From assembly GCF_030418315.1 (NCBI RefSeq), contig NZ_JAUHPV010000008.1, positions 1 to 64,000 on the forward strand: 64,000 nucleotides of DNA, given 5' to 3'. Shown piece after piece: positions 11,562-41,964 of this stretch. Both the position numbers and the translations under genes were made by a program. How positions within the stretch are numbered: the stretch's first letter is position 1; the number at the start of each line of letters is the position of its first letter. Below the pieces are notes generated by a model. The model saw only the letters and a list, made by a program, of their open reading frames with translations. It was not told the origin of the DNA and ran no database searches. This stretch comes from Demequina zhanjiangensis. Its GTDB lineage: Bacteria; Actinomycetota; Actinomycetes; Actinomycetales; Demequinaceae.

Positions 11562-12386
11562 CTAACGGTTCAGGCCCTTGAGGGCTGGTGGGCGCATGAC
11601 GAATCGCCAGGCAGCGCGCCATGAGCCGAGATCCCGACGGTGTCGCACCGCGAACACCGCGCGGACGGGGTAGCCGAGCGGCCCGAAGACCCTGGCGAAC
11701 ACGGCAGAGCGGGAGGCCGTGTGGGCCTCGTCGGACCAGTTGGATCCTGAGCTGACGTGCGGGTGCACTCCGAAGGCGAGCGGCATGGACTCTCCGGTGA
11801 GCCCTGCACGCAGCGCGTCCGCGATGAAGATGTACTCGTCGCCCAAAGGAAGCTCTGCGCCAGCGCCGAAGCGCTCGTCGAAGCGGACGCCCGCCTTCCT
11901 GCACTGCTCGACGTCGACCACCATCTCGTAGGTCGCGGCGCGGGCGGAGTTCCATACCGTCAGGCGGCCGAACTCGGCCGGGTGGCTCTTGCGTGCTCTG
12001 CCGGTGCCGGCATCGACACCATAGCCGAGCGCGATCGCAGTGCCGTTCTGCTGCATGCGCGTGACGGCCGCGAACACCTCGTCCCACTGGATCTCGACAT
12101 CGTCATCGCCGAACAGCAGGTACTTCGTGCCACAGAGCTCGAGCGCCTTGTTCCGGCTCTTCGCGACCCCGCGCGAGCGCAGCACGGAGACGGGTCCACG
12201 GTCGGCGACCGGTGCGGGAACGTCGTCCGGACTGAACTCCTCGGCGCCGAAGTGCTGCACCACCGCGAGGCTCGCCACGGGTGGGTCCTCCAGCGCGACC
12301 AGCCGCGAGACGCGGTCAGAGGTCGTGGAGAAGCCGACCGTGAGCAGCGTTGCCGCTGAGCCCTCGCGAGGGGCGGTGGGGCTCAC
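11562..12386 (-). CDS. Family 2-type glycosyltransferase
   Basis: A 274-residue glycosyltransferase with a GT-A fold. It has the acceptor-side pattern VAKSRNKALELCGTKYLLF followed by the metal-binding Asp triad in GDDDVEIQWDEV (about residues 97-108), then a conserved LGDEYIFIADALRAGL region. It should transfer one sugar residue to a cell-surface polysaccharide precursor. The GTG start overlaps the stop of the upstream gene (GTGA, 12383-12386), so the two are translationally coupled. The open frame extends further upstream but only as a shadow of that gene. The 85 bp between it and the GT8 gene may contain a promoter for the latter; I could not assign one. Confidence 0.85.
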   Translation of the reverse strand: MSPTAPREGSAATLLTVGFSTTSDRVSRLVALEDPPVASLAVVQHFGAEEFSPDDVPAPVADRGPVSVLRSRGVAKSRNKALELCGTKYLLFGDDDVEIQWDEVFAAVTRMQQNGTAIALGYGVDAGTGRARKSHPAEFGRLTVWNSARAATYEMVVDVEQCRKAGVRFDERFGAGAELPLGDEYIFIADALRAGLTGESMPLAFGVHPHVSSGSNWSDEAHTASRSAVFARVFGPLGYPVRAVFAVRHRRDLGSWRAAWRFVMRPPALKGLNR

Positions 12387-25230: not shown

Positions 25231-25259
25231 TGACGAGTGTCAGTGCCCAGCCATACGAT
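25231..25259 (+). promoter_or_regulatory. Promoter of the DUF2510/Ltp gene
   Basis: TGACGA (25231-25236) and TACGAT (25254-25259) are separated by 17 bp. The expected transcription start is near 25266 and the ATG at 25295 follows GAGGGGA, a fair ribosome site. Confidence 0.5.
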
Positions 25260-38431: not shown

Positions 38432-38451
38432 CGCAGGCGCAGACCCGGGAG

Positions 38452-38490
38452 AGGGCCCGGCTTCCACGGTGGTGGGAAGCCGGGCCCTCT
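38452..38490 (+). terminator. Terminator of the sugar-importer operon
   Basis: The perfect 15-bp arms GAGGGCCCGGCTTCC (38452-38466) and GGAAGCCGGGCCCTC (38476-38490) with a 9-nt loop are followed by TTG. Confidence 0.85.
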
Positions 38491-38564: not shown

Positions 38565-38596
38565 TACAGTCGAGAATGGTTGATACAGAAACCATT
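38565..38596 (+). promoter_or_regulatory. azoR promoter with possible operator
   Basis: TACAGT (38565-38570) is a plausible -10 with a start near 38577. Immediately downstream AATGGTT (38575-38581) and AACCATT (38590-38596) form a 7-bp inverted repeat with an 8-nt spacer, placed where a repressor could block initiation. No -35 match is obvious. Confidence 0.45.
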
Positions 38597-38626
38597 TCTG
38601 CCGACACCCGAAGAAGGGGGCCCGCT

Positions 38627-39250
38627 ATGGCCAAGCTGCTCGTGATCCGTGCCCACCCGCTCACCTCGGAGAACTCCCGCTCGATGCGGCTCACCGACGA
38701 GTTCGTCAAGACCTACAAGGAGACGCACCCGGACGACGACGTCCTGGAGCAGAGCCTGTACAACATCGCGATCCCCGAGATCGACCTGGACCTGTTCAGC
38801 GCCTGGAACAAGCTGCGCGAGGGCGTCCCCTTCGTCCGCCTCCACGAGGCCGAGCAGACCAAGAGCACGCTGTTCGAGGGCTACACGACGCAGTTCCTCA
38901 ACATGGACAAGATCGTCATCGCGAACCCGCTGTGGAACCTGCAGGTGCCCACGCGCCTCAAGGCCTGGATCGACTGCATCTGCGTCGCCGGCAAGACCTT
39001 CAAGTACAGCGAGACCGGCGAGGCCGTCGGCCTGGTGGCCGGCAAGAAGGCCCTGCACATCCAGACCAACGGTGGCGTCTACAACGGCCAGGACCCGGCC
39101 AGCCAGTACGTCCGCACCATGCTCGGCTTCATCGGCGTGACGGACTTCCAGGCGATCGCCGCTGAGGGCATGGACCACGACCCGGCCCGCGCCGGCGAGA
39201 TCATGGACGCCGCCTTCGCCGAGGTGCGCGCCGCCGCCGAGAGCTTCTGA
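38627..39250 (+). CDS. azoR: FMN-dependent NADH-azoreductase/flavodoxin-fold quinone reductase
   Basis: A 207-residue flavodoxin-like oxidoreductase. VIRAHPLTSENSRSMRL binds FMN phosphate, NPLWNLQVPTRLKAWID is the second FMN loop and TNGGVYNG the third, all as in AzoR. Family members reduce quinones or azo compounds by two electrons, protecting against electrophile stress. The ATG at 38627 follows AAGAAGGGGG; a start at 38576 would add 17 residues upstream of the fold and overlap the operator. It lies directly before the SoxR-type regulator and so probably belongs to the same redox-stress group. Confidence 0.92.
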   Translation: MAKLLVIRAHPLTSENSRSMRLTDEFVKTYKETHPDDDVLEQSLYNIAIPEIDLDLFSAWNKLREGVPFVRLHEAEQTKSTLFEGYTTQFLNMDKIVIANPLWNLQVPTRLKAWIDCICVAGKTFKYSETGEAVGLVAGKKALHIQTNGGVYNGQDPASQYVRTMLGFIGVTDFQAIAAEGMDHDPARAGEIMDAAFAEVRAAAESF

Positions 39251-39261
39251 TCTCTCTCCCC

Positions 39262-39305
39262 CTCCGGCCTAGAATCTCACCTAAGGTTGAGGTTCTAGGC
39301 CGGAG
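39262..39305 (+). promoter_or_regulatory. Inverted repeat and promoter region upstream of soxR
   Basis: A perfect 13-bp inverted repeat CTCCGGCCTAGAA (39262-39274) / TTCTAGGCCGGAG (39293-39305) surrounds an 18-nt centre containing the small palindrome ACCTAAGGT and the half-site TTGAGG. TAGAAT (39270-39275) can be a -10. It may be an autoregulatory site, or a terminator for azoR; both readings are possible. Confidence 0.45.
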
Positions 39306-39314
39306 GTGTATCTG

Positions 39315-39779
39315 ATGGGCATGGCTCACGAGCCCGACGAGCTGCTCACGATCGGCGACGTGTCCCGTCGTACTGGGGCCGCCGTCTCCGCGCTGAGGTA
39401 CTACGAGGATCTGGGCCTGATCGCCTCGGTGAGGACGGCGGGGAATCAGCGGCGATACCCCCGTCACATGCTCCGGCGCATCTCGCTGATCCTCGTGGCG
39501 AAGCGACTCGGCATCCCGCTCGACGACGTGCATGAGGCCTTCGCCTCCGTCCCCCTCGACTCCACTCCCAGCCATGACGACTGGCAGCGCGCCTCCCGCG
39601 CGTGGAAGCGCCAGCTCGAGGAGCGACGCCGCGCGTTGGAACGCCTGGAGTACGAGCTGACGGGCTGCATCGGCTGCGGATGCCTGTCGATGAAGGCGTG
39701 CGCGTTGCTGAATCCCGACGACGCGCTCGGCCGAACCGGGGCGGGCGCTCGGCGCCTGGACGACGCCGCCGACTCCTGA
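39315..39779 (+). CDS. soxR: SoxR-type redox-sensing MerR-family regulator
   Basis: A 154-residue MerR-family activator. The DNA-binding wing (about residues 11-80) has LTIGDVSRRTGAAVSALRYYEDLGLI and RRYPRHMLRRI. A dimerisation helix follows, then the [2Fe-2S] ligand motif of SoxR, four cysteines in the order CIGCGCLSMKAC (about 119-130) followed by LLNPDD. Oxidation of the cluster by redox-cycling agents or nitric oxide switches the protein on. GGAGG lies 8 nt before the ATG. Its likely target is the promoter of the neighbouring sod gene, which has a perfect SoxR-like palindrome and the 19-bp spacer expected for MerR activators. Confidence 0.9.
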   Translation: MGMAHEPDELLTIGDVSRRTGAAVSALRYYEDLGLIASVRTAGNQRRYPRHMLRRISLILVAKRLGIPLDDVHEAFASVPLDSTPSHDDWQRASRAWKRQLEERRRALERLEYELTGCIGCGCLSMKACALLNPDDALGRTGAGARRLDDAADS

Positions 39780-39836
39780 CGCGCAGGGCCGCCCGTTCGC
39801 GGCAGCGCCGGTGCCGGAGCCCCACAAGCACTCGGT

Positions 39837-39867
39837 TTGACCTCAAGTGCACTTGAGTTTCTAGCGT
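39837..39867 (+). promoter_or_regulatory. SoxR-controlled promoter of sod-fprA
   Basis: TTGACC (39837-39842) and TAGCGT (39862-39867) are separated by 19 bp, the over-long spacer typical of MerR-family targets. Between them lies the perfect palindrome CTCAAGTGCACTTGAG (39842-39857), close to the known SoxR box CCTCAAG-N4-CTTGAGG. This is strong sequence evidence for SoxR activation of sod. Confidence 0.8.
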
Positions 39868-39897
39868 GGTCTCGACGGACCGACGAAAGGACCCCCG

Positions 39898-40500
39898 TTG
39901 AGCACCTACACGCTTCCCGAGCTGCCCTACGACTACGCGGCGCTCGAGCCCCACATCTCCGGCCGCATCATGGAGCTCCACCACTCGAAGCACCACCAGG
40001 CGTACGTCACCGGCGCCAACAACGCGCTCGAGCAGATGGAGGCGGCGCGAGCCGCGGGCGACTTCGCGAACATCAACCGGCTCGAGAAGGACCTCGCGTT
40101 CAACCTGGGCGGTCACCTCAACCACAGCACGTTCTGGCAGAACCTCTCCCCTGAGGGCGGAGGCGAGCCGGACGGTGAGCTGGCCGCAGCGCTGGACGAC
40201 GCGTTCGGCTCCTTCGATGCCTTCAAGGCGCACTTCACCGCCGCAGCGCTCGGCGTCCAGGGCTCCGGATGGGCCATCCTGGGCTGGGACACGCTCGGCG
40301 CGCGCCCGCTCGTCTTCCAACTGTACGACCAGCAGGGCAACGTCCCTGTGGGCATCACGCCGCTGCTCCAGCTGGACGTGTGGGAGCACGCCTACTACCT
40401 GGACTACGCGAACGTCCGCGCGGACTACGTGAAGGCGTTCTGGGAGATCGCGAACTGGCAGGACGTCACCGCGCGCTTCGCTGCCGTCAACGCGAGGTGA
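39898..40500 (+). CDS. sodA: Superoxide dismutase (Fe/Mn)
   Basis: A 200-residue Fe/Mn superoxide dismutase converting superoxide to oxygen and peroxide. Metal ligands fall in [12 protein letters not shown] (His), HLNHSTFW (His), and DVWEHAYY (Asp, His). The residues around [10 protein letters not shown] suggest the Mn/Fe family but do not settle the metal. It starts with TTG; AAAGGA lies 9 nt upstream, and the family N-terminus [12 protein letters not shown] fits that start exactly. SoxR control is indicated by the promoter at 39837-39867. The FprA-like reductase starts 10 bp after its stop and is probably co-transcribed. Confidence 0.95.
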
Positions 40501-40510
40501 GCAGGCCTTC

Positions 40511-41884
40511 ATGACCACCCGACCCCTCACGGTGGCCGTGGTGGGCTCCGGCCCCGCCGGCGTCTACACGGCCGACATCCTGGCCAGCCATGAGACACCC
40601 ACCCACGTGGACGTCTTCGAGCGCCTGCCCGTGCCCTTCGGGCTCGTCCGTTACGGCGTCGCGCCCGACCATCCGCGCATCAAGGCGATCGTCGATGCGC
40701 TCCACTCGGTGCTGGACCGTGGAGACATCCGTCTGGTCGCCGGCATCGACGTGGGCGTGGACGTCTCCCTCGAGGCACTTCGTCGCGAGTACGACGCCGT
40801 GGTCCTCGCCACCGGCGCGGACGACGACGCGCCGCTCCCCCTCCCCGGCTTCGACCTGCCCGGATCGTTCGGCGCGGCCTCGTTCGTCTCCTGGTACGAC
40901 GCGCATCCCGACGCACCGACGGACTGGTCGCTCGATGCGGCACAGGTCGCCGTCATCGGCGCGGGGAACGTCGCGCTCGACGTGGCGCGGATGCTCGCGA
41001 AGCATGCCGAGGACCTGTCCCCGACGGAGATCCCGGACCACGTCCACGAGGCTCTCGCCTCCAGCAGCGTGACCGACGTGCACCTGTTCGCGCGACGCGG
41101 GCCCGCCGAGGCCCAGTTCTCGCCGCTTGAGCTGCGCGAGCTGGGGGACGTGCCGGACGTCGACATCGTCGTGGACCCCGCCGACATGGTGTTCGACCGG
41201 TCGAGCGAGGCGCTCATCGCGAGCTCCCGCCAGCGCAAGATCGTCGCCCAGACCCTGGTGGGCTGGTCGGAACGCGACCCGTCCACCTTCACCGCCTCCC
41301 GCCGCATCCACCTGCACTTCATGCAGGCTCCCGTGCGGCTCGACGGAGAGGGCGCGGTGCAGAGCCTCACGGTCGAGAGGACCCGCCACCTGGGCAACGG
41401 CACCGTCGAGGGCACCGGAGAGACTCTCACGTACCCCGTCGGTCAGGTCTACCGGGCTGTCGGCTACGCGTCACGGCCCGTGCCCGGTGCCCCCTACGAC
41501 GGGACGACGCATCGGATCCCCCACGACAGGGGCCGCGTGCTCGACGCCGAGGGGACGCCGATCCCTGGGCTCTACGCGAGCGGCTGGGCCAAGCGCGGCC
41601 CCGTCGGCCTCATCGGCTCGACCAAGTCGGACTCGCTCCAGACCGTCACTCACCTGCTCGAGGACCTCGCGGAGGCCCCGCGCACGGGTCGTGAAGGCGA
41701 CCCTCTCGCACGACTGCTCGCCGAGACGGGGCTTGAGCCCGTCGATTGGGAGGGCTGGTTGCGAGTCGACCGCCGCGAGCGCGAGCTGGGCGAGGCCCGC
41801 GGCCGCGAGCGCATCAAGATTCCTGACCGCCCTACTCTCACCTCGGTGGCCAGGGCTGCGGCGGAGGCGACGACGACAGTCTGA
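40511..41884 (+). CDS. fprA: Ferredoxin-NADP+ reductase (FprA/adrenodoxin reductase type)
   Basis: A 457-residue FAD/NADPH reductase. The FAD motif VAVVGSGPAGVYTADIL is at residues 9-25, the NADPH motif VAVIGAGNVALDVARML near 147-163, and GLYASGWAKRGPVGLIGS near the C-terminus matches bacterial FprA and mammalian adrenodoxin reductase. It passes electrons from NADPH to ferredoxins and could re-reduce iron-sulfur proteins such as SoxR. It sits directly behind sod, which mirrors the sodA/fpr pairing of the E. coli SoxRS regulon, though there the genes are separate. A terminator follows. Confidence 0.92.
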   Translation: MTTRPLTVAVVGSGPAGVYTADILASHETPTHVDVFERLPVPFGLVRYGVAPDHPRIKAIVDALHSVLDRGDIRLVAGIDVGVDVSLEALRREYDAVVLATGADDDAPLPLPGFDLPGSFGAASFVSWYDAHPDAPTDWSLDAAQVAVIGAGNVALDVARMLAKHAEDLSPTEIPDHVHEALASSSVTDVHLFARRGPAEAQFSPLELRELGDVPDVDIVVDPADMVFDRSSEALIASSRQRKIVAQTLVGWSERDPSTFTASRRIHLHFMQAPVRLDGEGAVQSLTVERTRHLGNGTVEGTGETLTYPVGQVYRAVGYASRPVPGAPYDGTTHRIPHDRGRVLDAEGTPIPGLYASGWAKRGPVGLIGSTKSDSLQTVTHLLEDLAEAPRTGREGDPLARLLAETGLEPVDWEGWLRVDRRERELGEARGRERIKIPDRPTLTSVARAAAEATTTV

Positions 41885-41928
41885 CCGCCGTCCCGGTCCG
41901 GTTCCGGGACGCCGCCGCAGCGAAAGGC

Positions 41929-41964
41929 GAAGGCCCGGTCTCCCTCAGGAGGCCGGGCCTTCGT
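41929..41964. terminator. Bidirectional terminator between fprA and the GH3 gene
   Basis: Arms CGAAGGCCCGG (41929-41939) and CCGGGCCTTCG (41954-41964), with CTCC/GGAG extending the stem inward around CTCA. It serves two convergent genes. Confidence 0.8.

Follow-up and report, generated by a model that had tools for sequence, protein, structure and literature searches.

A predicted one-promoter SoxR switch for sod and fprA in Demequina zhanjiangensis

Described SoxR systems and the Demequina locus

SoxR activates its promoters by untwisting the DNA, and in actinobacteria the protein is known mainly from Streptomyces, where a small regulon responds to redox-active antibiotics. It is also said to act directly on sodBII, without SoxS, in Agrobacterium tumefaciens, a member of another phylum with another gene set. 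The subject here is a soxR gene followed by sod, for a superoxide dismutase (SOD), and fprA, for a reductase of the NADPH-ferredoxin/adrenodoxin-reductase type, in the actinobacterium Demequina zhanjiangensis, within a stretch of 64,000 nucleotides (positions 1 to 64,000 of contig NZ_JAUHPV010000008.1, forward strand) that is called the window throughout. Its sequence and the comparison with relatives make it likely that the cluster is a one-promoter switch through which SoxR drives sod and fprA directly.

In the Escherichia coli SoxRS regulon, sodA and fpr are under redox control (PMC8859910), and the window likewise joins an SOD to a reductase. The E. coli response runs in two steps through SoxS, however, and the window FprA belongs to the adrenodoxin-reductase family, so the likeness is one of function only. 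The parallel with E. coli fpr that a first-pass annotation of this DNA had drawn therefore holds for the pairing of an SOD with a ferredoxin-NADP reductase but not for the type of enzyme: the solved chains that match FprA at 1e-30 are those of adrenodoxin reductase (1cjc, 1.5e-79) and FprA (1lqt, 2.1e-79) only, none being a plant-type Fpr. Streptomyces coelicolor has the same regulator family in an actinobacterium, as in the window; its SoxR regulon counts six genes by the title of the paper, its soxR is not autoregulated, and the term 'superoxide dismutase' has no occurrence in the accessible text of that source (PMC4146615). Elsewhere, reports are noted that point to a role for SoxR in sod regulation (PMC4411124), and for an Antarctic Arthrobacter genome SoxR is only supposed to act directly on superoxide defence (PMC4326396).

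The sod promoter and its counterparts in related loci

The first-pass annotation had placed a SoxR-type regulator next to sod and fprA, and its protein sequence is that of a true SoxR. It scores 191 bits (8.2e-57) against the NCBIfam equivalog TIGR01950, whose cut-off is 116.9, and aligns with E. coli SoxR (2zhg) over residues 12–154 of the longer open reading frame (ORF), with the four cluster cysteines kept (CIGCGCLSMKAC in the window opposite CIGCGCLSRSDC in E. coli). These cysteines form the [2Fe-2S] motif CX2CXCX5C near the C-terminus, which is present in 176 of the 176 SoxR rows gathered. The start of the gene is better placed at the ATG, 8 bases past GGAGG, than at the GTG (Table 1).

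The promoter in front of sod has TTGACC at −35 (39837–39842) and TAGCGT at −10 (39862–39867), 19 bp apart, with a perfect palindrome between them whose first base is the final C of the −35 hexamer; the earlier description of these elements was exact, base for base. A palindrome between −35 and −10 with a spacer of ~19 bp is the arrangement of a SoxR-activated promoter, and the box agrees with the E. coli consensus CCTCAAGTTAACTTGAGG (quoted in PMC4411124). An 18-bp sox-box pattern, CCTCAAGTNNACTTGAGG, at up to three mismatches matches once in the 64-kb window, at the sod site (one mismatch), and dinucleotide shuffles of the window gave a mean of 0.06 matches, with at least one match in 6 of 100. 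In the whole genome (3,125,792 bases) the sole perfect match to the 16-bp pattern is again the sod box. The runner-up, at C13:12223 with two mismatches, was rejected as a second sox box, as it stands at a gene start next to a dapE-like gene (an identity read from sequence) and is without TTG and TA at the promoter positions. Weaker genomic sites are meaningless, because at up to three mismatches the 16-bp pattern is no commoner (17 sites per strand) than its reversed control (31).

At such a promoter the 19-bp spacer would hold transcription of sod at a low level for as long as the [2Fe-2S] cluster of SoxR has not been oxidised by a redox-cycling compound. The oxidised protein would then untwist the DNA and allow RNA polymerase to transcribe sod and, as predicted, fprA on the same RNA. 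SOD would clear superoxide, while FprA would presumably hand electrons from NADPH to ferredoxin, either for repair or for restoring reductant, and a relay of the SoxS kind would not be needed.

Related loci argue for this arrangement. Scanning genome contigs with the SoxR protein as query left 80 loci, and the 44 in which SoxR has at least 63% identity enter the counts as named loci; the other 36 have a SoxR of about 54% identity or less, or partial or other MerR matches only. sod is present in 24 of the 44. In 15 it follows soxR on the same strand, and a sox box stands between the two genes in every case; in 9 it lies upstream on the opposite strand, each time with a box before soxR. The 20 downstream boxes of these relatives have TTG at the −35 place (20 of 20) and TA at the −10 place (19 of 20), at 19-bp spacing. 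Where a downstream box is not followed by sod, four loci (L062, L064, L075 and L088) end right after the box, before sod could appear, and were scored as lacking it, and L071 has a flavin reductase instead. Boxes of equal quality elsewhere in the 44 loci number 7 in about 361 kb. Since many relatives keep the sox box at the same place, direct one-step control is likely, and for sod itself the comparison supports the direct SoxR control that the first-pass annotation had suggested.

The actinobacterial soxR-sod loci, from Brachybacterium, Microbacterium, Agromyces, Leucobacter, Aeromicrobium, Gulosibacter and Corynebacterium, resemble the window in combining soxR, sod and a box at the sod-facing promoter. 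They differ from it in that a divergent fdxA shares the box before soxR in 27 of the 44 named loci (at two mismatches or fewer in 27 of 27), whereas the window has fprA, with neither fdxA nor an intact upstream box. In the remaining loci fdxA lies before soxR on the same strand (3), ~2.5 kb away (1) or is not seen (13); the three with it on the same strand are Cellulomonas-type loci (L098, L099 and L119), where it stands behind a MarR gene. Microbacterium resistens NBRC 103078 (L090) has the same soxR-sod-fprA order as the window, with identities of 84% for SoxR, 81–82% for SOD and 73–74% for FprA, but its locus reads fdxA-box-soxR-box-sod-fprA, with both boxes perfect and a flavin reductase after fprA.

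A second survey covered the order, from which 396 genomes were drawn evenly. SoxR over the cut-off was found in 127, the window genome included, and from each of the other 126 the best SoxR locus was taken with 3 kb per side where the contig allowed; nine of these 126 loci coincide with named loci, and the two samples therefore overlap. sod lies within 3 kb of soxR in 19 of the 126 (11 in family f11, 3 in f6, 2 each in f19 and f8, and 1 in f9, where shared loci identify f11 as Brachybacterium, of the Dermabacteraceae, and f19 as Microbacteriaceae), and families f5, f7, f13, f14, f15 and f17 have no sod within 3 kb of a sampled SoxR. A box of two mismatches or fewer stands on at least one side of soxR in 16 of the 19. 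Five gene orders occur: soxR-sod; soxR-flavin reductase-sod; sod divergent from soxR; sod behind fdxA and a flavin reductase on the divergent side; and, in a single direction in G251 (L271), fdxA-sod-fprA-soxR. Of the comparative evidence, the retention of sod at SoxR despite such rearrangement speaks best for a functional tie between them. Half-sites vary over the order as well: a second type, CTCAAC-N4-GTTGAG, is common, and the CTCAAG and CTCAAC halves are unevenly spread over families (loci L179–L304).

Table 1. Features of the soxR-sod-fprA region, in window coordinates
Feature	Position	Strand	Basis
Inverted repeat, 19-nt arms 8 nt apart; 3' arm includes the soxR ribosome-binding site GGAGG (39302–39306)	39261–39306	+	Inverted-repeat search
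Decayed sox-box counterpart before soxR, CTCACCTAAGGTTGAG, 3 of 12 defined bases off	39276–39291	no strand	Comparison with relatives
soxR, 154 aa from ATG 39315; ORF open from GTG 39306	39315–39779	+	TIGR01950 and alignment to 2zhg
sod promoter, TTGACC - 19 bp - TAGCGT, MerR/SoxR layout	39837–39867	+	Sequence read
sox box, perfect 16-bp palindrome CTCAAGTGCACTTGAG	39842–39857	no strand	Inverted-repeat and pattern search; counterparts in relatives
sod, Fe/Mn superoxide dismutase, second genome copy, TTG start	39898–40500	+	PF00081/PF02777
fprA, NADPH-ferredoxin/adrenodoxin-reductase type, second genome copy	40511–41884	+	Solved-chain matches
16-nt inverted repeat 3' of fprA, without T run	41928–41963	+	Inverted-repeat search

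Evidence against a direct switch and rival explanations

Several observations weigh against a SoxR switch that acts directly on both genes. Linkage of SoxR to sod is the minority state in the order, 107 of the 126 loci having no sod within 3 kb, which bears out the premise of the first-pass annotation that many non-enteric SoxR proteins do not stand at sod. Three of the 19 sod-linked order loci are without a box of two mismatches or fewer near soxR, and none of the 36 loci left out of the named set has a sod match. TAGCGT is a weak −10 by the usual consensus, and a sigma-70 scan, which covers spacers of 16–18 bp only, finds no promoter. Lastly, fprA stands beside soxR in just one of the 44 named loci (L090) and one of the 126 order loci.

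The rarity of fprA bears on the possibility that the box drives sod alone and that fprA, on a promoter of its own or a constitutive one, is a passenger of an acquired cluster. This seems unlikely. It would accord with the far more frequent presence of sod (24 of 44 named and 19 of 126 order loci, against one of each for fprA) and with the finding of a flavin reductase or no recognised partner after sod in other loci. Only 10 bases separate sod from fprA in the window, however, and the gap holds no terminator-like site and no inverted repeat, which is why fprA is predicted to be controlled from the sod box. M. resistens likewise has fprA after sod on the same strand, the matches being 145 bases apart, and its FprA pairs with that of the window in the tree (SH-aLRT 95, with a warning of long branches), so that sod and fprA probably travelled together. 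The earlier proposal of direct control over both genes thus has a conserved box behind it for sod, and for fprA the short, uninterrupted gap. Both genes are second copies alongside housekeeping ones; the genome's other SOD is 64% identical to the window SOD, for which the closest solved chains are 8bhx, then 1gn3/1ids and 1ar4, and its other FprA is 54% identical to the window protein.

It is also conceivable, though improbable, that SoxR is a leftover which may bind the box while sod is constitutive or otherwise regulated, the switch having ceased to function after transfer. The box before soxR has decayed to 3 mismatches of 12, a search of 36 other genomes of the genus (7 more were outside it) gave no SoxR over the cut-off, and in a sister species, G026, fprA and sod form a pair that lacks SoxR and adjoins an HxlR regulator. 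Yet the box of a dead switch should decay, and here the sod box is perfect and the SoxR frame intact, at 84% identity to M. resistens. It is scarcely credible that the palindrome is the site of a different MerR-type regulator or arose by chance, for although the genome has 5 further MerR-like matches, all of them below the SoxR cut-off, the chance expectation is 0.06 per window even at 3 mismatches, a site of the same type stands at the same place in 20 of the 44 SoxR loci, and the palindrome fits the E. coli consensus (PMC4411124).

Upstream region, origin of the cluster and SoxR reset

The predicted direct control of sod and fprA leaves soxR itself, before which a box of two mismatches or fewer stands in 38 of the 44 named loci. 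On the reverse strand, 29 of 41 such boxes have TTG and TA at promoter spacing, forming a promoter that faces fdxA where fdxA is divergent, and on the forward side the relatives' box is preceded by a −10-like TAGGAT, TAAGAC or similar. The window counterpart has TAGAAT directly 5' of it (39270–39275), likely the soxR −10; the site has kept its −10 and lost the divergent −35, and fdxA is not there. A mapped sox box over the soxR start region in Stenotrophomonas represents the layout of an autorepressed soxR, and SoxR binds a box with CTCAAC-type halves there (PMC4411124), so the decayed window box may bind SoxR weakly. By the state of that box, window soxR is probably weakly autoregulated or not at all. 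The decayed box also forms part of the hairpin listed in Table 1. Segment 39251–39326 folds at −40.3 kcal/mol (z −5.0), none of 200 shuffles being equally low, with the ribosome-binding site of soxR within the stem; RNA reading through from azoR, the gene before soxR, may be stopped or left untranslated, and RNA from the soxR promoter itself would be free.

azoR is a local gene outside the soxR-sod-fprA unit. It has no match in 58 loci (L062–L119) and none in the 126 order loci, occurs in 4 of 44 genus genomes, the present one included, and in G030 and G006 is found at the opposite end of the same sugar-transport operon; on its absence from those soxR loci and its position elsewhere along the transport operon it was rejected as a member. 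The compact unit that had been drawn from 38565 to 41884 accordingly stands as regards soxR, sod and fprA, and its range takes in azoR, which lies outside. An inverted repeat before azoR, AATGGTT-N8-AACCATT (38575–38596), may be an operator for a separate regulator, and a perfect 16-nt inverted repeat after the transport operon (38450–38490), without a T run, is likely a terminator. The repeat 3' of fprA is the probable transcript end; a scan for T-run terminators gave nothing in the region.

The soxR-sod-fprA cluster was most likely acquired from a source whose genes resembled those of Microbacteriaceae, and its loss in other genus members is less likely. In G030 the sugar-transport permease and beta-glucosidase that flank the window cluster are directly adjacent (ends at 25252 and 25461 on one contig), and both sides are collinear with the window, an empty site without the soxR cluster; G006 was rejected as a second such site, its two flanking genes being at the ends of two contigs. 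Quick trees, with SH-aLRT as the sole support measure and no bootstrap, group the window SOD with 11 SODs linked to soxR, mostly from Microbacteriaceae, and with the second SOD of G026; this set of 13 rows (support 98) stands apart from the housekeeping SODs of the genus, the window genome's own among them (96). Within its own group the window SoxR has only weakly supported neighbours, from Corynebacterium. The cluster is unremarkable in GC content and GC3, so the case for transfer is built on the empty site, the trees and the patchy distribution. A plasmid origin was rejected for want of a near donor: 126 of 129 plasmid records with SoxR at 1e-20 are less than 60% identical, and the best reaches 77%.

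The second fprA-sod pair of G026, 56% and 81% identical to the window proteins, lies in a cluster (L305, 2261–5530) that comprises a short-chain dehydrogenase gene, fprA and sod with a divergent HxlR-family regulator. G026 has no SoxR over the cut-off and no box of two mismatches or fewer in that cluster; three sites with three mismatches are all within or beyond genes. Because its FprA and that of the window are not close in the tree, the pair is a parallel association of fprA with sod and not the same operon with a changed sensor.

There is some ground for asking whether such a switch resets itself, with SoxR-induced FprA and FdxA re-reducing SoxR to turn the promoter off in place of the Rsx/RseC proteins of E. 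coli, whose SoxR reset system has been described (PMC11729352). The idea is hinted at by three observations: RnfC/RsxC was not found in the 127 SoxR-bearing genomes sampled, fdxA is divergent across a sox box in 27 of 44 loci and lies before soxR on the same strand in 3, and the clusters of M. resistens, G251 and the window include fprA. The window genome has no RnfC/RsxC match, in a search whose E. coli control was positive. At 1e-25 the matches listed came from three of the 396 order genomes, all below the cut-off and in family f20, and among those matches none fell in the 127 SoxR-bearing genomes, the equal-sized draw being taken as the same genomes. Self-resetting is nonetheless doubtful for the window organism. 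The single copy of fdxA found there (C13:5772–6086) is distant from the cluster and has no box of three mismatches or fewer near it; the nearest one listed on its contig, at 12223, is ~6 kb off, and control of FdxA by SoxR in this organism was rejected. Linkage of fprA is rare, and a further point against is that Mycobacterium tuberculosis FprA, which prefers Fdx, gains no more than 2- to 4-fold from FdxA (PMC6208970).

Among titles and the beginnings of abstracts, with most subscription journals outside the coverage, no account was found of SoxR acting in a circuit with sod or fdxA in these actinobacteria, and no paper on Brachybacterium in this context. The regulatory idea is known in kind; less familiar, it seems, are how widely it occurs in actinobacteria, its connection with ferredoxin and FprA, and the Rsx reset system's apparent absence. 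The window and its relatives raise the question of how SoxR is reset in bacteria in which no Rsx system of the E. coli kind has been found. They also point to a set of actinobacteria from several families in which SoxR stands next to sod and the activating box is conserved in place through several gene orders, so that a direct one-step superoxide circuit would become testable in easy laboratory organisms. The window itself offers a natural experiment: the other members of the genus that were searched are without SoxR, and here stands a SoxR unit equipped with one strong box.

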